From: a virus
Length of the DNA: 27,587 bases
Direction: 5' to 3' (one strand)
Virus record (IMG/VR): IMGVR_UViG_3300031957_001881
Coordinates: 1-27,587 of that record
The position numbers and the translations under genes are program-made. The notes below the pieces were generated by a model. It ran no database searches and was not told the origin of the DNA. It worked only from the letters and a program-made list of their open reading frames with translations. Numbering within the stretch: position 1 is the first letter of the stretch; each line of letters starts with the position of its first letter. Of this stretch, positions 2 through 27,293 are shown piece after piece.

Positions 2-952
2 GATCAAGATGCTTTAAACGAGTTTTACCGACAGTTTCCTAGAACTACAGAGCATGCTTTCAGAGATGAAAGTAAAAACAGTATCTTTAACTTAATGAAG
101 ATATACGAGCAGATAGACTACAACGAAGGTAGTAGACATGCTGCTCATACTACGACTGGAAGTTTTAGTTGGGTAAACGGTATTAAGGATTCTAAGGTGG
201 TTTTCCACCCAGATCCAGGTGGAAGATTTAAAGTTAGTTGGGTTCCCCCATCTCACTTACAAAATAAACAAATAATAAAAAATGGTGTTAAGTTCCCAGG
301 GAATGATCACGTTGGCGCGTTTGGCTGTGATAGTTATGATATTAGCGGTACTGTTGATGGCAAGGGTTCAAAAGGATCACTTCATGGACTAACAAAGTTT
401 TCTATGGAAGACGCGCCTTCGAGTACGTTTTTCTTAGAGTATATAGCAAGACCCCAAACCGCAGAAATATTTTTTGAAGATGTGTTAATGGCATTAGTAT
501 TTTATGGTATGCCTTTATTAGCAGAGAACAACAAGCCAAGACTACTGTACTATTTGCGCCGAAGAGGTTATAGAGGGTATAGCATGAACAGACCAGACAA
601 AACTTGGAAGAAGTTATCAGTTGCTGAAAAAGAAGTGGGTGGTATACCAAACTCAAGTGAAGATATTAAACAAGCTCACGCCTCAGCTATAGAGATGTAC
701 ATACAAGGACACGTAGGACATTTAGGTGAAGGTAATTACGGTACTGTTTACTTTAACGAGTTGTTAAACGACTGGGCTAAGTTTGATATAAACAAAAGAA
801 CAAAGCACGATGCTTCTATAAGCTCTGGTTTAGCTATTATGGCTTGCAACAGACATTTGTATGCCCCTAATGCTAAAGTAGAAAGAAAACCGTTAGACCT
901 GAATATATCTAAATACAACAACAAGGGATTTAATTCCGAAATAATAAAGTAA
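2..952 (+). CDS. Terminase large subunit, C-terminal nuclease part (5' truncated by window edge)
   Basis: The open frame runs from base 2, with no start in the window, to the TAA at 950-952, giving 316 residues. The first in-frame ATG, at 95, is internal because the upstream residues (DQDALNEFYRQFPRTTEHAF) already belong to the protein. This tail end of the ATPase and the region after it match the large terminase of crAss-like and Cellulophaga podoviruses as I remember them. Recognisable segments are GCDSYDISG, whose Asp (codon 329-331) suits the first acid of the RNase H-like nuclease, FFEDVLMALVFYGMP with a second acid, and HDASISSGLAIMA with a third (codon 809-811). The protein cuts and translocates genome DNA into the procapsid through the portal encoded next door. 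The Walker motifs lie outside the window. Family confidence is high; exact catalytic residues are inferred. Confidence 0.88.
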   Translation, partial: DQDALNEFYRQFPRTTEHAFRDESKNSIFNLMKIYEQIDYNEGSRHAAHTTTGSFSWVNGIKDSKVVFHPDPGGRFKVSWVPPSHLQNKQIIKNGVKFPGNDHVGAFGCDSYDISGTVDGKGSKGSLHGLTKFSMEDAPSSTFFLEYIARPQTAEIFFEDVLMALVFYGMPLLAENNKPRLLYYLRRRGYRGYSMNRPDKTWKKLSVAEKEVGGIPNSSEDIKQAHASAIEMYIQGHVGHLGEGNYGTVYFNELLNDWAKFDINKRTKHDASISSGLAIMACNRHLYAPNAKVERKPLDLNISKYNNKGFNSEIIK

Positions 953-955
953 AAT

Positions 956-3370
956 ATGGCTGAGTCAGTACATGTTAATTTTCCAAAGCAAAACGTTAGC
1001 GATGACGAAAAGAACTCTATTGAGTATGGAGAGAAAATTGCTAAAGCTATAAGCGCTGAGTGGTTTAGTAGAGAAACTAGCGCTAGTAGGTATACTACTA
1101 ATGCAAATGATTTTCATAAACTCAGGCTGTACGCTAGAGGAGAGCAGTCTATACAAAAATATAAAGATGAGTTATCTATTAACGGTGATTTATCGTATCT
1201 TAATTTAGATTGGACACCGGTACCTATTATATCTAAGTTTGTTGATATAGTTGTTAACGGTATAGCTGAAAGAACTTATGACGTAAAGGCTTTCTCTATA
1301 GACGCTGGTGGATCAGAAAAAAGAAACAATTTTATAGACACTGTTACTGGTGATATGCAAATGAAGGGGTTTGATAGCTCAATGATGCAGGAGTTAGGTG
1401 TTGATACTACACAAAGTAGCATGCAGGTTCTACCTGAATCAGATGAAGAGTTGCAGCTATATATGCAGTTGCAGTATAAGCAGGCTATCGAGATAGCGGA
1501 GGAGCAAGCTATTAGCGTTTTGCTAGAAGGAAATAACTATGAATTAATTAAGAAAAGATTTTTTCATGATTTAACAGTTTTAGGTATTGGAGTTGTTAAA
1601 ACAGGGTTTAATAAATCGGAAGGCGTCGTAGTGGATTATGTTGATCCAGCTAACGTCGTTTATTCTCACACTGAATCACCTTATTTTGAAGACATATATT
1701 ACGTTGGTGAAGTTAAAGCTTTACCGATCAACGAATTAGTCAGAGAGTTTCCTCACTTAACAGATAGTGAGATTGACGAAATTGTAAGCAAAAACAACAA
1801 GAATAATACTTATAGATATAATTCACGAAGTAGTCTTAGGGATGACAACATTGTGCATGTGCTTTATTTCAATTACAAAACCTACAATAGTGAGGTTTAT
1901 AAGATTAAGCAGACAGGAAGCGGAGGAGATAAAGCTATAGAAAAAACCGATAGGTTTAACCCTCCGGAAAACATGGACGGTAACTTCACTAGAGAAGCTA
2001 AGAAGCTGGAAGTTCTTTACGATGGGGTTATGGTTCTTGGTTGTGATAAAATACTTAAGTGGGAGTTGTCTAAAAACATGATTCGCTCTAAGAGTGATTT
2101 TAACAAAGTTAAAATGAACTACAGTATTGTAGCTCCTAGGATGTACAAAGGTAGAATCAAAAGTTTAGTTAGTAGAATAACTGGTTTTGCTGATATGATA
2201 CAGCTTACTCATCTCAAGCTACAGCAAGTTATGGCTAAGATGGTTCCAGATGGTGTTTATTTAGATGCAGATGGTTTAGCCGAAATTGATTTAGGTAATG
2301 GCACTAACTATAACCCACAGGAAGCTCTTAACATGTTCTTTCAAACTGGTAGTGTTATAGGTAGAAGCTTCACCTCTGAAGGTGACATGAACCCTGGTAA
2401 AGTACCTATTCAAGAAATACAGTCTAGTAGCAAAGGCGCTAAACTACAGTCTTTGATACAGACGTATAACTATTACTTGCAGATGATTCGTGATGTCACT
2501 GGTCTAAATGAAGCTAGAGACGGTAGTACACCTGATAAAAACGCTTTAGTTGGAATACAAAAAATAGCCGCAGCTAACTCTAATACAGCTACAAGGCATA
2601 TCCTGCAAGCTGGATTACTTCTTACAGCTGAAACAGCTGAAAAGTTATCATTAAGAATATCTGATGTCATAGAGTATTCACCTACTAAGAAAGCTTTTAT
2701 TGAGTCAATCGGGCACCGCAATGTAGCAAAATTAGAAGAGGTATCAGAACTGCATCTACACGATTTCGGTATTTTTATAGAACTATCTCCTGACGAAGAA
2801 GAAAAGCAGTTGCTAGAAAACAACGTTCAAATGGCTCTTCAACAAGGTGGAATTGAACTAGAAGACGCTATAGATATTAGAGAAGTAAAAAACTTAAAGT
2901 TAGCCAATCAGCTACTAAAGATAAGGCGTAACAAAAAAATAGAACGTGACAGACAGCAACAGCTAGAAAACATACAGGCTCAAACACAGTCTAACCAAGC
3001 CGCTGCTCAAGCTTCAGCTCAAGCAGAAGTTCAAAAGCAATCCGCTATTACACAGAGTAAAGTTCAACTGCTTCAAGCTCAATCACAGGCTGACGCTCAA
3101 AAGTTACAGTTAGAGATGGCTGCTAAAAAAGAACTTATGGGACTTGAGTTTCAGTACAACATGCAGTTGAAAGGTATTGAGGTTAGTGGGCTCAAAGATA
3201 GAGAGAGCCAAAAGGAAGATAGAAAAGACGAAAGAACAAAGATACAAGCATCCCAACAAAGCGAACTTATAGACCAAAGAAAAAGCGGAAAACCACCTAA
3301 AAAGTTTGAATCCGCAGGTAATGATACTATAGGTGGTGGATTTGGCTTAGAAGCCTTTGGGGCGCAGTAA
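956..3370 (+). CDS. Portal protein
   Basis: This 804-residue protein starts 3 bases after the terminase stop (AAAATATGG), with no Shine-Dalgarno. Its position between terminase and capsid genes, its length and its layout fit the dodecameric portal of crAss-like phages, which forms the DNA channel at one capsid vertex. The N-terminal half is mixed alpha/beta. Residues near 390-520 contain the helix-rich segment around MAKMVPDGVYLDADGLAEI and QEIQSSSKGAKLQSLIQTYN, followed by GLNEARDGSTPDKNALVG, a pattern I associate with portal stem/clip regions of this group. From about 650 to 775 the protein becomes a Gln/Ala-rich coiled coil (many QAQ and QSQ runs), probably the barrel or tail-side extension. 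It ends in a Gly/Phe-rich tip. There is no sign of truncation. Assignment rests on context plus family resemblance. Confidence 0.85.
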   Translation: MAESVHVNFPKQNVSDDEKNSIEYGEKIAKAISAEWFSRETSASRYTTNANDFHKLRLYARGEQSIQKYKDELSINGDLSYLNLDWTPVPIISKFVDIVVNGIAERTYDVKAFSIDAGGSEKRNNFIDTVTGDMQMKGFDSSMMQELGVDTTQSSMQVLPESDEELQLYMQLQYKQAIEIAEEQAISVLLEGNNYELIKKRFFHDLTVLGIGVVKTGFNKSEGVVVDYVDPANVVYSHTESPYFEDIYYVGEVKALPINELVREFPHLTDSEIDEIVSKNNKNNTYRYNSRSSLRDDNIVHVLYFNYKTYNSEVYKIKQTGSGGDKAIEKTDRFNPPENMDGNFTREAKKLEVLYDGVMVLGCDKILKWELSKNMIRSKSDFNKVKMNYSIVAPRMYKGRIKSLVSRITGFADMIQLTHLKLQQVMAKMVPDGVYLDADGLAEIDLGNGTNYNPQEALNMFFQTGSVIGRSFTSEGDMNPGKVPIQEIQSSSKGAKLQSLIQTYNYYLQMIRDVTGLNEARDGSTPDKNALVGIQKIAAANSNTATRHILQAGLLLTAETAEKLSLRISDVIEYSPTKKAFIESIGHRNVAKLEEVSELHLHDFGIFIELSPDEEEKQLLENNVQMALQQGGIELEDAIDIREVKNLKLANQLLKIRRNKKIERDRQQQLENIQAQTQSNQAAAQASAQAEVQKQSAITQSKVQLLQAQSQADAQKLQLEMAAKKELMGLEFQYNMQLKGIEVSGLKDRESQKEDRKDERTKIQASQQSELIDQRKSGKPPKKFESAGNDTIGGGFGLEAFGAQ

Positions 3371-3383
3371 ATTATTAAATAAC

Positions 3384-3401
3384 TATTATATTATATTATG
3401 G
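3384..3401 (+). promoter_or_regulatory. A/T leader at the scaffold-like gene start (copy 1)
   Basis: The same 18-base sequence as at 6094-6111, again ending on the start codon (ATG at 3398). It fills most of the 27-base gap after the portal gene. Its role in translation start or promotion is inferred only. Confidence 0.4.
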
Positions 3402-4561
3402 AAGAAGTAAAAAACGAAGAAGTGATCGAAGAGGTTACTCAAGAAACACCTCAAGAAGAGGTTGCTGAGGAGCAGAAACCCGAGGTAGATTTAAGTAAAT
3501 TTGAAAGCAAAGATGATGATGACGTCATTAAAATAGATTTAAGTAAACCAATAGAAACAGAATCAGAAACAGTAGATGAGAACCAAACTGATCTCGAAGA
3601 AGTTGTTGCAGAAGTTACACAAGAAGAGAACGCTAGCGATGAGGTACCAACCCTTGAGGAAATTACCGATGAGGAAACTGTCACAGAAGAAGAAGTAATA
3701 GAAGCCCTTGACGCTAATGAAGAGTCAGGGAAAGCTATACCAGAAAACGTTCAGAAGTTGCTAAACTTTATGGATGAAACAGGTGGAGACCTAGAAGACT
3801 ACGTTAAGCTAAATAAAGACACTAGTAATTTAAGTGATCAAGATGCTTTACGGGAGTACTACCAAAGAACTAAACCTCATCTAGCTTCAGATGAAATTGA
3901 TTTTCTTATAGAAGATGGATTTTCATATGATGAAGATATAGATGATGAAAGAGATATTAAACGTAAAAAATTGGCCCTCAAAGAGCAAGTTGCCGAGGCC
4001 AAGACCTACTTAGACGGGCAAAAGTCTAAATATTACGAAGAGATTAAAGCTGGAAGCAAACTCACAGGTGAGCAGCAGAAGGCAATTGATTTCTTCAACC
4101 GATACAATAAAGAGTCAGAGCAGACTAATCAAGCTGTCAAACGTAGTAGTGATGTTTTTGAACAAAAGACTAATAATCTTTTTAACGACAAATTCAAAGG
4201 TTTTGAATACAACGTCGGAGAAAAAAAATATCGATTCAACGTTAAGGATGTCGATGGTGTGAAAGCTAAGCAGAGTGATATAAACAATTTCATGTCAAAG
4301 TTTGTCGATGAAAATAAATCGCTTTCAGATGCTAAAGGATACCACAAGGCGTTGTATACAGCGATGAATTCCGATGCAGTTGCTCAACATTTCTATGAAC
4401 AAGGAAAAGCCGATGCACTGAAAGACAGTGTTCGGAAGTCGAAAAATATTGATATGGATCCCAGAGGTTCACATAAAGAAACGACTACCGGCGGCATGAA
4501 AGTTCGAGTGTTAGGTGATGATTCTGCCTCTTTTAAGTTCAAAATGAAAAATAAAAAATAA
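3398..4561 (+). CDS. Acidic scaffold-like capsid assembly protein
   Basis: This 387-residue protein lies directly upstream of the capsid gene, where tailed phages usually encode their scaffold. The first ~110 residues are extremely acidic (runs of Glu, and DDDD near residue 40) and look disordered. Residues ~125-260 are helical, with charged coiled-coil character (KRKKLALKEQVAEAKTYLDG). The C terminus is short and basic (FKFKMKNKK), as in scaffolds that bind the shell through a basic tail. The acidic N-terminal arm plus helical core plus basic tail fits an internal scaffold that is lost or degraded before packaging. No protease motif was seen in it. The start at 3398 follows a 27-base A/T-rich leader and has no Shine-Dalgarno. 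The function is inferred from position and composition, not from sequence identity. Confidence 0.65.
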   Translation: MEEVKNEEVIEEVTQETPQEEVAEEQKPEVDLSKFESKDDDDVIKIDLSKPIETESETVDENQTDLEEVVAEVTQEENASDEVPTLEEITDEETVTEEEVIEALDANEESGKAIPENVQKLLNFMDETGGDLEDYVKLNKDTSNLSDQDALREYYQRTKPHLASDEIDFLIEDGFSYDEDIDDERDIKRKKLALKEQVAEAKTYLDGQKSKYYEEIKAGSKLTGEQQKAIDFFNRYNKESEQTNQAVKRSSDVFEQKTNNLFNDKFKGFEYNVGEKKYRFNVKDVDGVKAKQSDINNFMSKFVDENKSLSDAKGYHKALYTAMNSDAVAQHFYEQGKADALKDSVRKSKNIDMDPRGSHKETTTGGMKVRVLGDDSASFKFKMKNKK

Positions 4562-4581
4562 CAATTTAAAAATTAAGAAAA

Positions 4582-6033
4582 ATGGCAATTACACCTGCAA
4601 CTCAGACAAGAGCCGGTGCTGTAAAGACAGCTCTATCTGAGAATTATTTAGACATCCAAAATAATGGATGGGCGCAGCAATACCTTCCAGATCTAATGGA
4701 AAAGGAAGCCGAAGTGTTCGGTAAAAGAACAATCTCTGGTTTTCTCGCTCAAGTTGGAGCTGAAGAAGCTATGGCTGCAGACCAAGTTATTTGGTCAGAA
4801 CAAGGTCGATTACACCTTTCATACAAAGGAACAATCGGAACAAACACAGTTAGTACTATTCAATTAGATACTGATATTGACGATCAAGACGTAGGAACCA
4901 CTCACGGTGTTCGCGTTGGAGATACTATTTTGGTAGCTTCTTCCGCTCTCACGGTTCAGTGTTACGTTTCTCAAATCAATTCAGATACTGGTGGTGGACA
5001 GAACACTGGGTCAACAGACTTTATCACAGCTGTGCCTTACTCTCATGAGCATCTTGACGATGCTGGTTTTGGAGCTGATGACGCTGTTACTGTACTAGTT
5101 TATGGTTCAGAGCACGCAAAAGGAACTGCTGGTAAAGTTGGGTCTAACGAGCCTTCTTTTACTACATTTACCAACAAACCAATTATCATGAAAGATATGT
5201 ACCAGGTTTCTGGTTCTGATGTTTCTCAAGTTGGTTGGGTGGAAGTTTCTGGTGAAGATGGGCAAAACGGTTACTACTGGTACCTAAAAGCTGAAGGAGA
5301 TACTCGCTCTCGTTTTATGGACTACGTTGAAATGGCGATGATTGAGTCTGAAAAAGCTGCTGTTGCTTCTATTGCTCTTAGCGGTGCTAATGACGTTAAT
5401 GAACTCCAAGGTACTGAAGGTTTATTCGCGGCTATTGAGTCACGTGGTCACCAGTCTTCTGGTATTACCGGTGTTAACGCGGCTACTGATTTAGCTGAAT
5501 TTGACGCAATTTTAGCTGAGTTTGATAAGAACGGTGCTATTGAAGAAAACATGCTTTTCCTTAACCGAGCTACATCACTAGCTATGGATGACATGCTCGC
5601 TTCAATGAATTCCTACGGTGCTGGTGGTACTTCTTACGGAGTATTTGACAACTCTGAGGACATGGCTCTAAACCTTGGTTTCTCAGGTTTCCGTCGCGGA
5701 TCATACGATTTTTACAAGTCTGACTTCCGCTACTTGAACGATCTAGCTACACGTGGTGGTATTAACGCTAGAAACACCGCTGGTGCTGTTCGTGGTGTGG
5801 TTATTCCAGCTGGGGTATCCTCTGTGTATGACGATGTTTTAGGCAGAAATCTCAAGCGTCCTTTCTTACACACCCGTTTCAGAGCTTCAGCTACTGAGTC
5901 ACGTAAAATGAAGACTTGGACTACTGGTTCTGTTGGAGCAGTTACATCTGATCTTGACGCGATGACAGTGAACTTCCTAACTGAGCGATGCTTAGTTGTA
6001 CAGGGAGCAAACAACTTTATGTTGTTGAACTAA
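4582..6033 (+). CDS. Major capsid protein (HK97-fold type, inferred)
   Basis: This 483-residue protein follows the scaffold-like gene by 20 bases and starts after AATTAAGAAAAATGG. The N terminus (SENYLDIQNNGWAQQYLPDL, EAEVFGKRTISGFLAQVG) resembles capsid proteins of crAss-like and related Bacteroidota phages, which have the HK97 fold. Features that fit are the N-terminal helix, the central segment with DYVEMAMIESEKAAVASIAL, the GTSYGVFDNSEDMALNLGF region, and the C-terminal FLTERCLVVQGANNFMLLN strand. Codon choice differs from its neighbours, using more C- and G-ending codons (for example GGT, CGC, AAC), as expected for the most highly expressed phage gene. A strong hairpin stands 17 bases after the stop. 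The assignment is secure from context; the fold is inferred. Confidence 0.85.
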   Translation: MAITPATQTRAGAVKTALSENYLDIQNNGWAQQYLPDLMEKEAEVFGKRTISGFLAQVGAEEAMAADQVIWSEQGRLHLSYKGTIGTNTVSTIQLDTDIDDQDVGTTHGVRVGDTILVASSALTVQCYVSQINSDTGGGQNTGSTDFITAVPYSHEHLDDAGFGADDAVTVLVYGSEHAKGTAGKVGSNEPSFTTFTNKPIIMKDMYQVSGSDVSQVGWVEVSGEDGQNGYYWYLKAEGDTRSRFMDYVEMAMIESEKAAVASIALSGANDVNELQGTEGLFAAIESRGHQSSGITGVNAATDLAEFDAILAEFDKNGAIEENMLFLNRATSLAMDDMLASMNSYGAGGTSYGVFDNSEDMALNLGFSGFRRGSYDFYKSDFRYLNDLATRGGINARNTAGAVRGVVIPAGVSSVYDDVLGRNLKRPFLHTRFRASATESRKMKTWTTGSVGAVTSDLDAMTVNFLTERCLVVQGANNFMLLN

Positions 6034-19415: not shown

Positions 19416-22400
19416 ATGTACGAACTTAACGGCGAACAGGTAGACTTAGCTAGGCTTAAAGAGCTTGCGGGTAACTACAATATGGATGTAAACACTTACA
19501 TTCAAAAAATGACAGATAAAGGGCGACTTGTAGTAAAGCAGGGAGGTGCCGCTGCGACCGATGCGGGAGCGGTACCACAAATAGTACCCGTAGGTATGGA
19601 ATCAGCATCGGTAGATACTTCTTTGGGGCAACTATCAGCTAGTGAAGATGAGTTACCTGAGGATAAAGGGTGGTTTGAAGACATGTTCACCGCGATATCT
19701 GGAGGAGCTAAAGCTGGTTCAGGTGTTGGTGAAGCTTTTGACGTGTATAGACAAGGGCGTAATATATCAGAGGAAGATTTAAAGGGTTTTGTGAAAGCGG
19801 CAAACGCTATGACAGAAAATCCAGAAACAAACGAAGCTGCTTCTTGGAGGAAAGATACGGAAAAACATGGAGGTGGTTTCTTAGGAGGTTTTATGGGTTT
19901 ATTAGAAAACCCAGGTTACGCACCTCAGTTTATAGCATCATCTTTTGCTACTATGGTTTCTTCTTTAGTTGACTCAGAGGAAGTTGCAGCGGCTACCACG
20001 GTTGGAGCAGGTGTAGGATATGGTGCTGGAAGTGGTATTGGAGCTCTTGGAGGTTCTATAGGAGGTCCAATAGGAACAGCTTTAGGTTACGTTGGTGGTG
20101 GTGCTGCTGGAGCTATAGGTGGAGGTATGGCAGGGTTGGTTGGTGCTATGGAAACTGGTTTGACTTTAACAGATCTATTGAGAGATGAATTAGGGGATAA
20201 AGACTTTAACGAAAAAAACATAAGAGCTTTATTGAACGATAAAGACGTTATGGACAGAGTTAAATCAAGATCTTTAGCTAGAGGTTTAACTATTGGGGCT
20301 GTAGAAGGTTTAACCATGGGTTTATCTCGTGGGGTTGGTGGTAAAATTATCACTTCAGCCGCGACAAAAGGCGCTGTGGGTTTATCAAAAGCAGGTTTAA
20401 AAACAGGTGCTAAAGTAGCCGCAGCAACTACAGGTGTAGAGATGGTTGGTGGTGGTGGTGGTGAAGCTTTAGGTATGTTAGCTGCAGGACAAGAGCTTAA
20501 AGGAGAGGAGATATTCCTAGAGGCTATAGGTGAGGCAAAAGGTGCTGTTAACACTTCTGATATAGTTAAGTCAGCTCTGACAAATACTTCATATAAATTA
20601 AACGGCGAAGACGTTACTGCTGATAAGATAAAAGAGACAATAGATAACCCTAATACTTCAAAAGCTGATTTAGCTAAGATGAAGATAGAGGTTACTGGAG
20701 ATAAGGCGTTTGATAATTATGTTAAGAGTAAGCAAAATGACGCTATAATAGACTCTCAGATAGACACAAGAATTACAGACCAAAAAGATAGAGATAAGTT
20801 AACTGAATTAGAGATTGAAAGAGAGAAAGCTAAAGCAGATACTAAAAAAGAAGGAGCTTACAAGGTGCCAGATGCTGAAAAAAAACTGAGTGATATTGAG
20901 AATGAAATTTCAGATATTATTGGTAAGTATGAGGGTGCTGTAGGATATGGGGAAACTGAAACCGCTAAAGAAGTTGCTAAAGTTAGGCGTGATATAAAAA
21001 TATCAGATACTATAGCTTTTGCAGAGGCCGCAGGGAAAAAGATAGGTAAAGATGTACACGTGGCTGATGATAACGCAAGTGCTCAAGAGCTATTTAACAA
21101 AATAAGGGAAGAGCATAATAAGAACGCTGAAGAACATAACGCCGCTAACCCAGATGATCAAATAAAACTTATAAAAGACGAGGATGTCTCTAATGCAGAT
21201 GGTTTTATAGTTGGTGATTCTATTGTTATAAATAAAGATATAGCAGGAAAAAGGGGCGCTATATCTGTTGGATCGCATGAAATATTGCATGGCATTTTAG
21301 CGAAGCACATGCAAGGTTTAGATGTAAGTGGTAAAAAAGAGTTAATATCTAGCTTTAAAAATGTTTTAAGCGAAAAGCAACTTACGGCTGTTACGAAAAG
21401 ACTACAAGATAATTACCAAGAGCAAATACAAGAAGATCCAGAATTTTTAGAAACTACAGATGAGTGGTTTACAGCTTTTTCTGATGCTATTGAAAAAGGT
21501 CAAATAACTTTCGAAGACACTCTTTTTACTAAAATTAGAGATATACTTCACAAAGTGTTTAAGAGATACAATGTAAACAAGGAGTTCGCGGACGGTCAAG
21601 CTGCATATGATTTTTTAAAAGAATATCATAAAAACGTTCAAGAAGGAAAGCTTGGTAAAAGAGCTATAGCTTTAGCCGGTGGAGGTGTAACAGCTAGTGA
21701 AACTTCGTTTTCTAGATCTAAAGCCGTAGAAGCGGTTAACGCTATAGAAGATGTTATTAGAAAAGGTGCGTTAGGTAGAGATGGGAAATATACTAAAAAG
21801 GATTTCCAAGAAAGTAGAGAGTTTGATGATGTACTTGATTCTATTATCGAAAACGGTGGTGCTATAAATAGTTATATAAAAGCGGTTGTAAAAAGCCCTA
21901 AAGAAAGAGAAAAAGCTATAAGAATATTAGGTGAGCGATTGTTAAACTATGACCCACAGGCTCAAAGAAAAACAGACTCTACAGAGCCTGTGACTATCGG
22001 TGAGTTCTTAATGGCTAACAAAGATTTCGCTAGATTAGTCGCTAAAAAAGAGTTAGCCGTTGAAGGTCAAGAGCAAGCAACAACAACTAGCATAGATACT
22101 CAAGATCAATACGGTCGAACAGTATCTGAAACGATAGCTGACACTACTGAAGAAACAGTAGCTGATACTAAAAAGCAACAGAAGCAAAGAGTACTACAAA
22201 GTCTAGCGGAAGTTACTTTAGACAACAAGAAGATTATTAATCTTAAGACTCAGCTTAAAATAGCTGATCTTATAGAACAAAATCCAGCTAACTTAGAAGA
22301 GAGATTAACTGAGCTTGTTAAAAAAGAAGTTACTAAAGCCGTTCAAAAAGAAATGGGTGGTATTAGCTTTAAGAAGGGTGAGGTGAAAGTTAGTGAAGAG

Positions 22401-25400
22401 TACAAAGCTTTTATGGCTTTTAATTATGAAAACATAATTAAAGGTTTAGATGTTACCACTATAAAGAATAACTACAAAACGTTATTTGAATTAACTAAAA
22501 TAGGTGTAGAGGAAAAGCGAACTAAAAAAGCTGATAAACCTAGTCTTAAGAAAGATAGTAACTTTAGAAAGGCTGTATTCAAAATCGAGACTAACAAAGC
22601 TAAGTTTACAAAGTTCTTTACAGACACAGCTAGCGATGTTAAACCTCAATCACACTTTAACAAGCTAAGAGGTAGACAAGCAGGTTTAGCTAAGCTAATA
22701 GCAGAGGGAATAGTTAAAGATGCCATCAACACCGAGATTGAGGAAACATCGACTAATATAGATGCGATAGTTGAAGCTAAACTTCGTGACTTTGCTAATA
22801 AGCTTGATAGGCAAAAGTCAGAAGTGCTAGGTAATTACAATGACCAAGTTAAGTTTTCAAAATCTGAGGTTAAAGCTGCGGTTGATTTGAAAAACTTAAT
22901 AGAATCTGGTGAAATTGTATTTGACACCAATGGTAAAACTTTACCAAAATACACAAAAAAATATAGTAAAAAAGTTAGAGACTTTGTTTACAAAGAACTA
23001 TACACTGCTGGTTTGCTGAAAGATGTAAACGATTTAAAGTTTATCGGTGCGGCATTTAGAAAGCTAGTTAAAGCAGGTAAACGAGGTATACAGTATGAAG
23101 CGTTTTTAATAGATCAGGCTATAGCTATTGAGAAAAAGTATGGCAAAGATGTTCTTGAAGTTACCATGCGTGAGCCAAGCGAAAAAGGTGGTTTGCCTGA
23201 TATACAGATAAGAATACAAGGTCAACTGTTTAACATCGAGGCTAAAATGAGTAACGCTCAATATAGCAGCGTTACGTTTGCTGTTGATGCTGGTGGTAAT
23301 TTTATTATTAAAAAGGATTACACGTTCAACGACGCGTTAATGGAGGCGCTTGGTAAACCAGCACAAGAGAAAATAAATCAAGTTAAAAAGCATTTAAAAA
23401 AGAAATACGGGTATGACTGGGAAAATATAAGTGTTCTGCCTAGCGAGTATTACAACGACTTTAAAGAACTAGTAGGTACTACACTTGCGTCTATGGAAAT
23501 AGACTTAGACCTAGTAAGCGAAATATACAATAAAAAAGCCAACTACCCAGTTAGCACGATACAGTTAATGGGTAGAGGTTTGTTTCACATGGGTGATGGG
23601 CCTAATCCATTAAACCTACCCAAATTAGAGGGTAAAGCTGTTATTAACTTGCGAGTAATTCCTAATACTCAGTACACAAAGGTTGATATAAAAAACATAA
23701 ACAGCATGAGCGACACAGAGTTGTTAGCGCTTGCTGAAAAAATGAAAGACCCAGAATACTTTAGACCTGTTCAAAGGGTGGCTACAGACTTTGAGATGGG
23801 TTCAGCTAGTAGAAACGACTTGATTAAAGCTATAAAGGTTCAAAGAGCTAAAAGTTACTCAAGAATTAAAACAGGTCTAAAGACGCTTACGTTTAGAGCT
23901 ATACCAATAATACCTAAATCTACATTAGAAACCCTAAAGTCAGATAAAAGTATAGGTAGTTTAACTAGGCTTGACGCTTTAGTGCGTAGCAAAGAGGTTG
24001 CTGCCATGGAAACGCAAAGAAAAGCTAAAGAAGCTAAGATATTAAGTAACGCAGTTAAAACTTCAAGAGCTAGTTTTTCTAAATCAACTAGTAATGAAAA
24101 TATAGTAAAAGTTGGTAAATGGAATTTAGATATTTCCACTAAACAAGGTAAAAAAATAGCTGCAGAACTAGCCAATATAAAAACCGTTAGTTCTAGTGAG
24201 TTCAAGCGAGTAGGTAGATGGAGTTTAGATACCTCTACCAAAGAGGGTAAAAGTATACTAGCACAACTAGAAGAAATACCAACAGTTAGCTCTAGCGAAA
24301 CTAAAGGTATCACCGTATTAGACTTTGACGACACGTTAGCTACTACTAAGTCGGAGGTTATAGTTATAGATCCTAATATAACGCAAGAGAAACTTTTCAA
24401 CGGTAGCCCTAAGTCGTTTAAACAGCTAGGAGATCGCGCTGGGCTTGTCTTTCTAGCTAGTGAAGTTAGGGAAGCGGAGGCTTACGCTGAGTCAAATAGA
24501 GGTGAAGTTAAAGAAATATATGTTGATAAGTCTAAAATAGGTACAGAGGCACAATTGCTAAGCAAGATAGAGGAGTTAGGTTATAGCACCGAAGATGCTT
24601 TAGCTTATGAGCTTATTGACACTAGATTTCCAAACTCTCTTAAGCAAGGTGAAATAAGCAAAGTAATTAAAGCCTTAAAGAAAGATGGTTTGTCAGGTGT
24701 GGAATATACAGACGGAGCTCAGGTAACAGGTAAAAACACTAAAAGCACCGTGGTGTTTGATAAGTCTGCTATAAGCGAAACTCCAATAGGTTCTATGAAA
24801 ATAAATGCAGAGGAATTCGCGAAGCAAGGTGCGGGCCTACTAGCTCAAGGGGCTAAATTTGATTTTTCAGAATTTAACAAGGTTGTTGAAGGTAAAACAG
24901 CGCCGCTGTTTAATAAAGCTATGAAGCTTGCTGGTAAGTTTGGGACAGATAATATGTTTGTTTTAACCGCTAGATCTCCTGAGTCCGCTAAAGCTATTAA
25001 GCAGTTTTTAGATGCTCAAGGGTTAAATATACCTCTTAAGAATATAACAGGTTTAGGAAAGTCGGAAGCTGAGGCTAAAGCTTTGTGGATAGCTGAAAAA
25101 GTTGGTGAAGGTTACAACGACTTCTACTTTGCAGATGACGCTATTCAAAACGTGAAAGCTGTTAAGAATATGCTAGATCAATTTGACGTTAAGTCTAAAG
25201 TTCAGCAAGCCAGAGTGAAGTTTAGCCAAAGCATGGACGGTGAGTTTAACAAAATCCTTGAAGACATACTAGGCATAGAAGCTGTTAAAAGGTTCTCTAG
25301 CATGAAGGCTCGTAAAAGAGGTGAAAGTAAGGGTAAGTTTAGATTCTTTATACCTCCATCTCACGAGGACTTCGTTGGGCTACTCTACAACTTCATGGGT

Positions 25401-27293
25401 GTAGGGAAGAAAGGTAACGCACACAGAGACTTTCTAGAGCAAGCCTTAATTAGACCTTTAAATAGAGCCAACAAAGAGCTTGATACAGCTAGACAAAGTA
25501 TAGCTAACGACTTTAAATCTTTAAACAAAAGATTTCCTGATGTTAAAAGTAAACTTAAAAAGAAAACACCAGAAGGTGATTTTACCAATGAAGACGCTAT
25601 AAGAGTTTATCTATGGGATACCAACGGTTATGATATACCTGGTATAACTAAAACAGATCAAAAGAATTTAGTTGACTATATCAACTCTAATCCAGAGCTG
25701 AAAGCTTACGCGGATACTTTAAGTGTTATATCTAAACAAGAAGCTTACGTGAGCCCTACAGAAGGGTGGGAGTCTGGTGATATTAGAATGGATCTAAACG
25801 ACGCAACTGGTAGGGTTGGTAGAGAAGAGTATTTCGCGGAGTTTTTACAAAACACGGATATAATATTTTCTAAAGAAAACCTCAACAAGATTGAAGCTGG
25901 GTACGGTAAAGGTGTTAGAGAAGCTTTAGAGGATATGTTGTACCGAATTAAAACTGGTAGAAACAGACCTAGTGGAAGCAACGCTTTAGTAAATAGATTT
26001 GTTAACTATATAAATGGGGCTGTTGGTAGTGTTATGTTCTTTAATATAAGATCAGCTGTTCTTCAGCAGATGTCTATAGTGAACTACATAAACTTTGCTG
26101 ATAACAACATGTTTAACGCAGCTAAGGCTTTTGCTGACCAAAAACAATACTGGAGCGATTGGTCTTACATTTTTAACTCTGACATGCTAAAGCAGAGAAG
26201 AGGTGGTATACAGACTGATGTTAACGGATCTGAGCTAGCTGAAACTATCAGTAAGTCTAAATTCCCTGTGAGAACTTTAATAAGGGAGCTCTTGAAGATT
26301 GGTTTTACACCTACACAAATCGGTGATAATATAGCTATTGCAACCGGTGGCGCTACATATTACAGAAATAGAATTAAAACATATTTAAAGCAAGGTTTAT
26401 CTAAGACTGAAGCTGAGGCAAAAGCTTGGACAGATTTCCAAGATATAACGCAGTCTACTCAGCAGTCCGCTAGACCAGACATGGTATCTCAGCAACAAGC
26501 CTCGCCATTAGGTAAGTTTATACTAGCGTTTCAAAACGTAACATCTCAGTTTAACAGGTTGGGTAAAAAAGCGTTTTTGGATATAAAAAACAGAAGAATA
26601 ACAAAGCCTAATACTTCGCAGTTCCAAAGCGATGTGTCTAACGCGTCTAGAATCATGTATTACTTTGCTGTGCAAAACATGATATTCTATGGACTACAGA
26701 CGGCTTTATTTGCCGCTCTGTTTGACGACAACGAGGATGACGAAAGGTTTCTCAAAAAGAAAGAGAGAATGATAAACGGTAGTATTGACTCTGTTTTAAG
26801 AGGAAGCGGAGTCATGGGAGCTGTTGTAGCTACAGTTAAAAACATGGCCATGAAGTTTGCAGAGCAAAGAGAAGCAGGTTATAATAAAGATGAAAGCGCT
26901 GTTTTAATGGAAATGCTAAACGTATCTCCACCTTTAGGTATAAAAGCTAGAAAAATAGTTAACGCTGAAAAAACGTTAAACTATAACAAAAAAGCTATAG
27001 AAGAAATGGAAACTTTTGATATTGACAATCCTCAATGGTCCGCAGCCACCAGTTACATTGAAGGTGTGACTAATGTTCCGTTAAACAGACTGTACAACAA
27101 AACACAAAACATGAGAGAAGCTTTAAACAACCAGCACTCGGCTTGGCAAAGAGCGTTAATGTCCATGGGTTGGAGTAAATATAACCTAGGAGCTTATGAA
27201 GAAGAGAAAGACTCTACTTCGTCTAAACCAAAAAGCACATCACGAGGCAGTTCATCAAGGAGTGGATCATCGAGGGGTGGAGGTAAAAGATAA
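19416..27293 (+). CDS. Giant polyvalent internal virion protein: membrane-active, zincin, PD-(D/E)XK, ART-in-HAD
   Basis: This 2625-residue protein is the largest in the window. Glycine-rich hydrophobic stretches at ~190-250 and ~288-355 suit membrane insertion. A zincin-like site, HEILHG, lies at 621-626, with a candidate third ligand E683 in DEWFTAFSDAI. A PD-(D/E)XK-like site has E1228, D1262 (LPDIQIRI) and E1275-A-K1277. A 33-residue tandem repeat spans 1566-1630. A HAD phosphatase core carries D1636-F-D1638 (VLDFDDTLA), T1851 (FVLTARS) and D1907-D1908 (FYFADDA). An ADP-ribosyltransferase-like segment (~1658-1785, LFNGSPKSF to TVVFDKSAI) interrupts that core. Residues ~1940-2600 are helical, a type shared with other phage polyvalent proteins, and the protein ends in a Ser/Arg/Gly-rich tail. 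It is probably packaged and ejected. No DxDGD polymerase motif is present. Individual activities are inferred from motifs. Confidence 0.75.
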   Translation: MYELNGEQVDLARLKELAGNYNMDVNTYIQKMTDKGRLVVKQGGAAATDAGAVPQIVPVGMESASVDTSLGQLSASEDELPEDKGWFEDMFTAISGGAKAGSGVGEAFDVYRQGRNISEEDLKGFVKAANAMTENPETNEAASWRKDTEKHGGGFLGGFMGLLENPGYAPQFIASSFATMVSSLVDSEEVAAATTVGAGVGYGAGSGIGALGGSIGGPIGTALGYVGGGAAGAIGGGMAGLVGAMETGLTLTDLLRDELGDKDFNEKNIRALLNDKDVMDRVKSRSLARGLTIGAVEGLTMGLSRGVGGKIITSAATKGAVGLSKAGLKTGAKVAAATTGVEMVGGGGGEALGMLAAGQELKGEEIFLEAIGEAKGAVNTSDIVKSALTNTSYKLNGEDVTADKIKETIDNPNTSKADLAKMKIEVTGDKAFDNYVKSKQNDAIIDSQIDTRITDQKDRDKLTELEIEREKAKADTKKEGAYKVPDAEKKLSDIENEISDIIGKYEGAVGYGETETAKEVAKVRRDIKISDTIAFAEAAGKKIGKDVHVADDNASAQELFNKIREEHNKNAEEHNAANPDDQIKLIKDEDVSNADGFIVGDSIVINKDIAGKRGAISVGSHEILHGILAKHMQGLDVSGKKELISSFKNVLSEKQLTAVTKRLQDNYQEQIQEDPEFLETTDEWFTAFSDAIEKGQITFEDTLFTKIRDILHKVFKRYNVNKEFADGQAAYDFLKEYHKNVQEGKLGKRAIALAGGGVTASETSFSRSKAVEAVNAIEDVIRKGALGRDGKYTKKDFQESREFDDVLDSIIENGGAINSYIKAVVKSPKEREKAIRILGERLLNYDPQAQRKTDSTEPVTIGEFLMANKDFARLVAKKELAVEGQEQATTTSIDTQDQYGRTVSETIADTTEETVADTKKQQKQRVLQSLAEVTLDNKKIINLKTQLKIADLIEQNPANLEERLTELVKKEVTKAVQKEMGGISFKKGEVKVSEEYKAFMAFNYENIIKGLDVTTIKNNYKTLFELTKIGVEEKRTKKADKPSLKKDSNFRKAVFKIETNKAKFTKFFTDTASDVKPQSHFNKLRGRQAGLAKLIAEGIVKDAINTEIEETSTNIDAIVEAKLRDFANKLDRQKSEVLGNYNDQVKFSKSEVKAAVDLKNLIESGEIVFDTNGKTLPKYTKKYSKKVRDFVYKELYTAGLLKDVNDLKFIGAAFRKLVKAGKRGIQYEAFLIDQAIAIEKKYGKDVLEVTMREPSEKGGLPDIQIRIQGQLFNIEAKMSNAQYSSVTFAVDAGGNFIIKKDYTFNDALMEALGKPAQEKINQVKKHLKKKYGYDWENISVLPSEYYNDFKELVGTTLASMEIDLDLVSEIYNKKANYPVSTIQLMGRGLFHMGDGPNPLNLPKLEGKAVINLRVIPNTQYTKVDIKNINSMSDTELLALAEKMKDPEYFRPVQRVATDFEMGSASRNDLIKAIKVQRAKSYSRIKTGLKTLTFRAIPIIPKSTLETLKSDKSIGSLTRLDALVRSKEVAAMETQRKAKEAKILSNAVKTSRASFSKSTSNENIVKVGKWNLDISTKQGKKIAAELANIKTVSSSEFKRVGRWSLDTSTKEGKSILAQLEEIPTVSSSETKGITVLDFDDTLATTKSEVIVIDPNITQEKLFNGSPKSFKQLGDRAGLVFLASEVREAEAYAESNRGEVKEIYVDKSKIGTEAQLLSKIEELGYSTEDALAYELIDTRFPNSLKQGEISKVIKALKKDGLSGVEYTDGAQVTGKNTKSTVVFDKSAISETPIGSMKINAEEFAKQGAGLLAQGAKFDFSEFNKVVEGKTAPLFNKAMKLAGKFGTDNMFVLTARSPESAKAIKQFLDAQGLNIPLKNITGLGKSEAEAKALWIAEKVGEGYNDFYFADDAIQNVKAVKNMLDQFDVKSKVQQARVKFSQSMDGEFNKILEDILGIEAVKRFSSMKARKRGESKGKFRFFIPPSHEDFVGLLYNFMGVGKKGNAHRDFLEQALIRPLNRANKELDTARQSIANDFKSLNKRFPDVKSKLKKKTPEGDFTNEDAIRVYLWDTNGYDIPGITKTDQKNLVDYINSNPELKAYADTLSVISKQEAYVSPTEGWESGDIRMDLNDATGRVGREEYFAEFLQNTDIIFSKENLNKIEAGYGKGVREALEDMLYRIKTGRNRPSGSNALVNRFVNYINGAVGSVMFFNIRSAVLQQMSIVNYINFADNNMFNAAKAFADQKQYWSDWSYIFNSDMLKQRRGGIQTDVNGSELAETISKSKFPVRTLIRELLKIGFTPTQIGDNIAIATGGATYYRNRIKTYLKQGLSKTEAEAKAWTDFQDITQSTQQSARPDMVSQQQASPLGKFILAFQNVTSQFNRLGKKAFLDIKNRRITKPNTSQFQSDVSNASRIMYYFAVQNMIFYGLQTALFAALFDDNEDDERFLKKKERMINGSIDSVLRGSGVMGAVVATVKNMAMKFAEQREAGYNKDESAVLMEMLNVSPPLGIKARKIVNAEKTLNYNKKAIEEMETFDIDNPQWSAATSYIEGVTNVPLNRLYNKTQNMREALNNQHSAWQRALMSMGWSKYNLGAYEEEKDSTSSKPKSTSRGSSSRSGSSRGGGKR
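24111..24305 (+). repeat. In-frame tandem repeat of 99 bases (33 residues) in the giant protein
   Basis: Two 32-residue units (residues 1566-1597 and 1599-1630) are separated by one Arg. They share the pattern VGxWxLDxSTKxGKxI, ending TVSSSE. By my count 21 of 32 positions are identical. The DNA copies have diverged more than the protein, so the duplication is old and under selection. They sit just before the HAD motif I. Confidence 0.8.

Follow-up and report, generated by a model that had tools for sequence, protein, structure and literature searches.

A HAD phosphatase domain split by an ART-like segment in a giant polyvalent-type phage protein

The giant protein and its split phosphatase domain

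The window, by which we mean the whole 27,587-base stretch of IMG/VR record IMGVR_UViG_3300031957_001881 analysed here, is DNA of an uncultured marine phage and carries terminase, portal, and structural genes together with two giant open reading frames. The portal is 43–53% identical to portals of phages that mostly infect marine Bacteroidota, and its relatives include Flavobacterium elemo phages, a Maribacter phage, and an uncultured Caudoviricetes record. The domain of interest lies in a 2,625-residue multidomain protein encoded at 19416..27293 (+), the N-terminal part of which matches phrog_32588 (E 7.6e-50). This protein is of the polyvalent type, a large phage protein that combines several enzyme-like domains and is encoded beside portal and structural genes, and its gene neighbours suggest that it is a virion component. 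Its HAD phosphatase domain and the ADP-ribosyltransferase (ART)-like module within it were assigned by profile and by relatives, and two further regions by motif alone. One is an HExxH motif at residues 621–625 (in SHEILHGIL; window 21273–21290), which is typical of polyvalent-protein metallopeptidases; a Pfam search of this region returned nothing above the cut-off. The other is a PD-(D/E)xK-like nuclease motif near residue 1275 (window about 23200–23250, GLPDIQIRIQGQLFNIEAK), and the related protein L336 has a similar D...ExK stretch. Together, the two motifs would fit a polyvalent protein delivered at infection.

The HAD motifs are complete. Motif I (DxDx[TV]) is present as D1636-F-D1638-D-T within VLDFDDTLA (residues 1634–1642, from nucleotide 24315), motif II is T1851 of VLTAR (from 1849), and the acidic pair of motif IV is D1907-D1908 in YFADDA (from 1904). 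Among 214 distinct related HAD domains taken from viral contigs and from contigs of metagenome-assembled genomes, the motif I aspartates and the motif II threonine are present in every case and the motif IV pair in 213. K1888, the candidate for motif III, is invariant in a 22-sequence alignment. Motif I is nevertheless separated from LTAR by 214 residues in the window versus 77–78 in relatives that have no insert. The earlier note, made from this DNA alone, had proposed that an insertion splits the HAD cleanly, and had cited the three motifs above together with four strings from the inserted segment, LFNGSP (from 1660), VFLASEV (1678), DGLSGVEY (1757), and TVVFDKSAI (1778), and one that follows it, IGSMKINAEEF (1791). 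All of these occur where it placed them, and alignment to insert-free homologues bears out the clean split.

The N-terminal part of the domain (residues ~1631–1655, 24306..24380, +) comprises the motif I strand and the squiggle and flap up to the hairpin tip; the same sequence precedes a short hairpin in uninserted relatives. The C-terminal part (residues ~1791–1939, 24786..25232, +) contains a helical segment followed by T1851, K1888, and D1907/D1908. Between them, at 24381..24785 (+), lies an in-frame insert of ~135 residues (~1656–1790). The earlier bounds of 1658–1785 were nearly right; comparison with the relatives L003 and L319 moves both ends slightly outward. L003, the closest relative, is 95% identical over the C-terminal HAD part and has no insert, its DFDDTLATTKSKVLITAPDGVKSKLNAEEF corresponding to DFDDTLATTKSEVIVIDPN of the window, followed by ~135 residues and MKINAEEF. 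The insertion point is a β-hairpin turn that follows motif I and precedes the helical segment, at the tip of the HAD flap hairpin, which in the HAD fold is the point of insertion of C1 caps. C1-capped HAD phosphatases are likewise interrupted between motifs I and II at this hairpin. An ordinary C1 cap is a small domain of helical or α/β type, whereas the inserts described here are whole enzyme-like domains that differ among close relatives.

L319, from a second contig, carries an insert at the same HAD position that is 45% identical to that of the window (alignment score of 310 versus a shuffled maximum of 58). Because a homologous insert occupies this position in a second contig, its placement in the window is not a matter of chance, and a chimeric assembly is unlikely. 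The segment is absent from 174 of the 214 related HADs, which sets aside the possibility, raised beforehand, that all homologues carry it as part of one known domain. Two repeats were also observed in this part of the gene. Just upstream of motif I, at 24108–24299, are two similar units of ~34 residues (VGKWNLDISTKQGKK... and VGRWSLDTSTKEGKS...), none of which was seen in the corresponding stretch of L003. Within the HAD region, the 35 bases at 25049–25083 recur at 26393–26427 of the same gene with 83% identity.

Structure prediction gave the fold of the C-terminal HAD part with mostly high confidence (AlphaFold pLDDT about 85–90). When the HAD model was compared with solved structures using VIA-align, the best matches were the 3′ phosphatase of T4 Pnkp (Z 9.6), T4 polynucleotide kinase (8.9), and Pnkp1 (8.7); many generic HADs score about 7–8, modestly below the top value. 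These Pnkp phosphatases (T4 Pnkp 5uj0; 1rc8; 4xru; Z 8.7–9.6) are the nearest solved structures by VIA-align, and they have the DxD, T, and DD motifs in common with the window HAD, with a sequence identity of only about 10%. A sequence search of the PDB with the HAD returned no match. Because Foldseek alone found nothing in the PDB at E ≤ 0.001, we treat the Pnkp likeness as a lead rather than as proof. Pnkp and relatives of the window HAD also both have a P-loop kinase partner. In T4 Pnkp the kinase and phosphatase are consecutive. Here, by contrast, the partner is nested within the phosphatase, and that of the window is ART-like rather than a kinase. Two HAD-like viral proteins in BFVD, A0A218MMM0_2 and A0A6J5MBE6, are annotated as 'cytidyltransferase-like', which may point to a further partner domain for this HAD.

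The nested ART-like segment

The earlier note had also recognised an ART-like layout inside the insert, and profile comparison agrees. Searched alone, the insert matches PF18760 (ART-PolyVal) with E 8.6e-4 to 8.8e-4, at 20.5 bits against a gathering cut-off of 31.2; the L319 copy scores ~20 bits, likewise under the cut-off. Four copies are known here (window, L319, L336, and L338, the last truncated by its contig end). Each matches PF18760 separately (best E 1.6e-4), and this is the sole family matched consistently across them. A profile built from PF18760 members, with the window left out, gives the insert 18.9 bits; the best control, drawn from 3,000 shuffles and from tiles of the proteins encoded by the window, reaches 9.8. 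With hhalign, the four-copy alignment matches the PF18760 members at 89–90% probability over about 120 columns, the whole length. In its N-terminal half, the insert is 31–38% identical to two polyvalent-protein ARTs, including the Roseovarius podovirus prototype. The predicted structure is less informative: pLDDT of the insert was about 50–65 in context and 43 alone, in models made without the L319, L336, and L338 sequences. In the structural check suggested by the earlier note, both models of the insert are too poor to confirm an ART fold.

Single-sequence searches for close relatives of the segment in viral contigs, phages, and plasmids gave none, or none that was significant, and a sequence search of the PDB with the insert returned no ART. 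A distant relative was found in phage C75C1 (E 8e-9). A six-frame search of 49 related virus records with PF18760 gave no match; this negative says little, because the same search also missed the window itself. L339 is a weak match to the module. L251 was rejected as a relative, its weak genome match lying inside an unrelated-looking charged, coil-rich ORF. An alignment with full HAD rows was dropped because it misplaced motif I across the insert, and an L238 row, which had aligned to the HAD, was dropped as well.

ART-PolyVal is the ART domain of phage polyvalent proteins described by Iyer et al. 2017 (PMC5512222), with the vRNAP of Roseovarius Plymouth podovirus 1 (CBX87992.1) as an example, and it has a histidine in strand 1, a tyrosine in strand 2, and an aspartate in strand 5. 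The insert follows the same block order ([YF]xG[ST], G-L-x-F, A-Y-A, and a closing hydrophobic strand), is of similar length, and likewise resides in a giant multidomain phage protein. It differs in scoring under the Pfam cut-off, in being nested inside another domain, in an extra conserved YE[LM]IDxRF block, and in two of the three residues. The strand-1 histidine is replaced by N1662 (24399..24401, +), as the earlier note had seen, and asparagine occupies this position in all four copies; the C75C1 relative has arginine there. The aspartate of the GxDG motif, which our reading of the alignment would equate with the strand-5 aspartate, is S1760 in the window (24693..24695, +) and lysine in L319 and L336, and L338 ends upstream of it. 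At the strand-2 tyrosine position, where the alignment is uncertain at this residue, the window reads GLVFLA versus GLFFT in the prototype.

These replacements, found in every copy that could be checked, justify the earlier suspicion about NAD chemistry. Since the histidine is asparagine in four copies and the strand-5 aspartate is replaced in three, transferase activity is doubtful. Judged from these residues, ordinary ADP-ribosyl transfer by the module is unlikely, and altered chemistry is possible. Several residues specific to the module are conserved among the copies (SPKSF, EAxAYA, YxDGxQ, and YE[LM]IDxRF). The suggestion that one protein might both attach and remove a group is not supported by the comparison, the canonical histidine and aspartate being replaced in all checkable copies.

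Occupants of the flap-tip site and of a second site

The flap tip is not always empty or ART-like. At this site, 174 of the 214 related HADs have no insert, 36 have a P-loop kinase, three have other segments, and one, L319, has the ART-like module. The kinase inserts are about 200 residues long with Walker A intact in all 36, and those tested exceed the Pfam cut-offs for AAA_33 and Zeta_toxin. An example is the Zeta_toxin/AAA_33 kinase nested in the HAD hairpin of L040:4305-5423, and 35 other distinct HADs (among them L066, L069, L240, and L279) have the same arrangement. Such a kinase nested in a Pnkp-like phosphatase could be a nested polynucleotide kinase-phosphatase. The three other segments are about 90 residues in L005:4635-5420, with no Pfam match, about 67 residues in L158 (from 2701), with sub-threshold Pfam matches only, and about 46 residues in L330. 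The occurrence of empty, kinase, other, and ART-like states in one loop suggests that this loop acts as a domain-swapping socket.

The module also occupies a second loop. In L336 (ORF 2-5464), it lies within the C-terminal region of the giant protein, after GGATFFRNRLNTYLKE, and no HAD was found between the nuclease-like region and the C-terminal region of that protein. The module of L338 is likewise in this second loop, and its protein ends with the contig. The equivalent loop of the window, after GGATYYRNRIKTYLK (approximately 26400..26420, +), is empty, and in more than 120 distinct relatives it is a plain spacer of 31–38 residues. The L319 module, although at the flap tip, shares 71 identical residues with that of L336 versus 59 with that of the window. 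Being closer to L336 than to the window, it indicates that the module copies do not sort by site.

In the HAD tree, the ART-like state at the flap tip needs two changes, both forced by starred branches, and the kinase state needs at least five, two of them so forced. The changes are not polarised, so gains are indistinguishable from losses or exchanges. The closest HAD relative of L319 is L318, which is uninserted (pair support 98), and an AU test against a single clade of the two ART-bearing HADs gave p 0.06, which is not decisive. Two ideas about origin were set aside. A recent foreign origin was rejected on base composition, since the ART-like segment is close in GC content to each of its hosts (0.40 vs 0.38, 0.30 vs 0.31, and 0.32 vs 0.35). 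A mobile element acting at the DNA level was rejected because the codons at the 5′ end are conserved no more than elsewhere.

Function and significance of the nested module

Most likely, the phosphatase is an active, Pnkp-like enzyme and the insert an ART-fold module, catalytically altered, that has been grafted onto it as one of several interchangeable inserts. As to what it does, we lean, with modest confidence, toward a binding cap: nested in the HAD flap and devoid of ordinary transferase activity, it would alter the targets of the phosphatase. In this proposal, the Pnkp-like phosphatase would be a working enzyme that acts once the giant protein is inside the host. Since C1 caps insert at the hairpin tip, the module would lie on the rim of the pocket of the phosphatase, where it may bind a nucleotide, ADP-ribose, or a nucleic-acid end, and in doing so change which substrates the phosphatase reaches; in other phages, the kinase would fill the same socket as an alternative module. 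A broader version, which we offer tentatively, is that exchange of domains at the flap-tip socket retargets the phosphatase and that the ART-like module, its active site still in the replaced form, moves from one loop of the protein to another.

The main rival is one of permissive loops: in-frame inserts would simply be tolerated at the flap tip and in the second loop, and the module would be a passenger, with an independent activity or none, that leaves the phosphatase unaffected. Several unrelated inserts at one site (the kinase, the L005, L158, and L330 segments, and the ART-like module) are in keeping with such permissive loops, as is the same module in an unrelated loop of the L336 protein, which shows no HAD. 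However, residues specific to the module (SPKSF, EAxAYA, and YxDGxQ) are conserved across its copies, and the kinase recurs in 36 distinct HADs, always with an intact Walker A, which points to particular partners being favoured by selection; we judge a mere passenger unlikely. It is more doubtful still that the module is an active ADP-ribosyltransferase or other NAD-using enzyme with a rearranged site, built from N1662 with Y1764, D1766, and Q1769 or with E1732/D1735, in a protein that both modifies and dephosphorylates. The asparagine, YxDGxQ, and YE[LM]IDxRF are strongly conserved in the copies that cover them, and the arginine of the C75C1 relative indicates that the strand-1 residue varies in the wider group, but the canonical histidine and aspartate are both lost in the copies checked, and the searches turned up no known ART that has this set of residues. 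That the insert is not an ART fold and its Pfam similarity is convergent would accord with the sub-threshold scores and the poor AlphaFold models, yet it is very improbable given that four divergent copies each match PF18760 and consistently no other family, that the profile–profile match spans the full length, and that the N-terminal half resembles two polyvalent-protein ARTs.

ART domains in polyvalent phage proteins have been described before. The open-access papers searched contain no account of an ART or a kinase nested in a HAD, and in them we likewise found neither the consistent replacement of the canonical residues nor a socket that an ART-like module and a kinase share. The main text of Iyer et al. 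2017 (PMC5512222) makes no mention of insertion, haloacid, or phosphatase.

Accounts of domain shuffling in phage polyvalent proteins usually picture the domains as beads on a string. The related phages compared here supply before-and-after pairs for a nested arrangement, in which an entire enzyme-like domain lies within one loop of a second enzyme; the inserts at one site are of several kinds, and one module is found at two sites. The result is a natural series for testing the effects of nested domains on an enzyme's substrate. If its substrate is nucleic acid, the commoner nested form, in which a Pnkp-like phosphatase encloses a P-loop kinase, would amount to a polynucleotide kinase-phosphatase with its domains reordered. 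The ART-like copies represent a lineage of domains that has been kept despite replacement of the residues for NAD chemistry, and they bear on the roles of pseudoenzymes in phage–host conflict.
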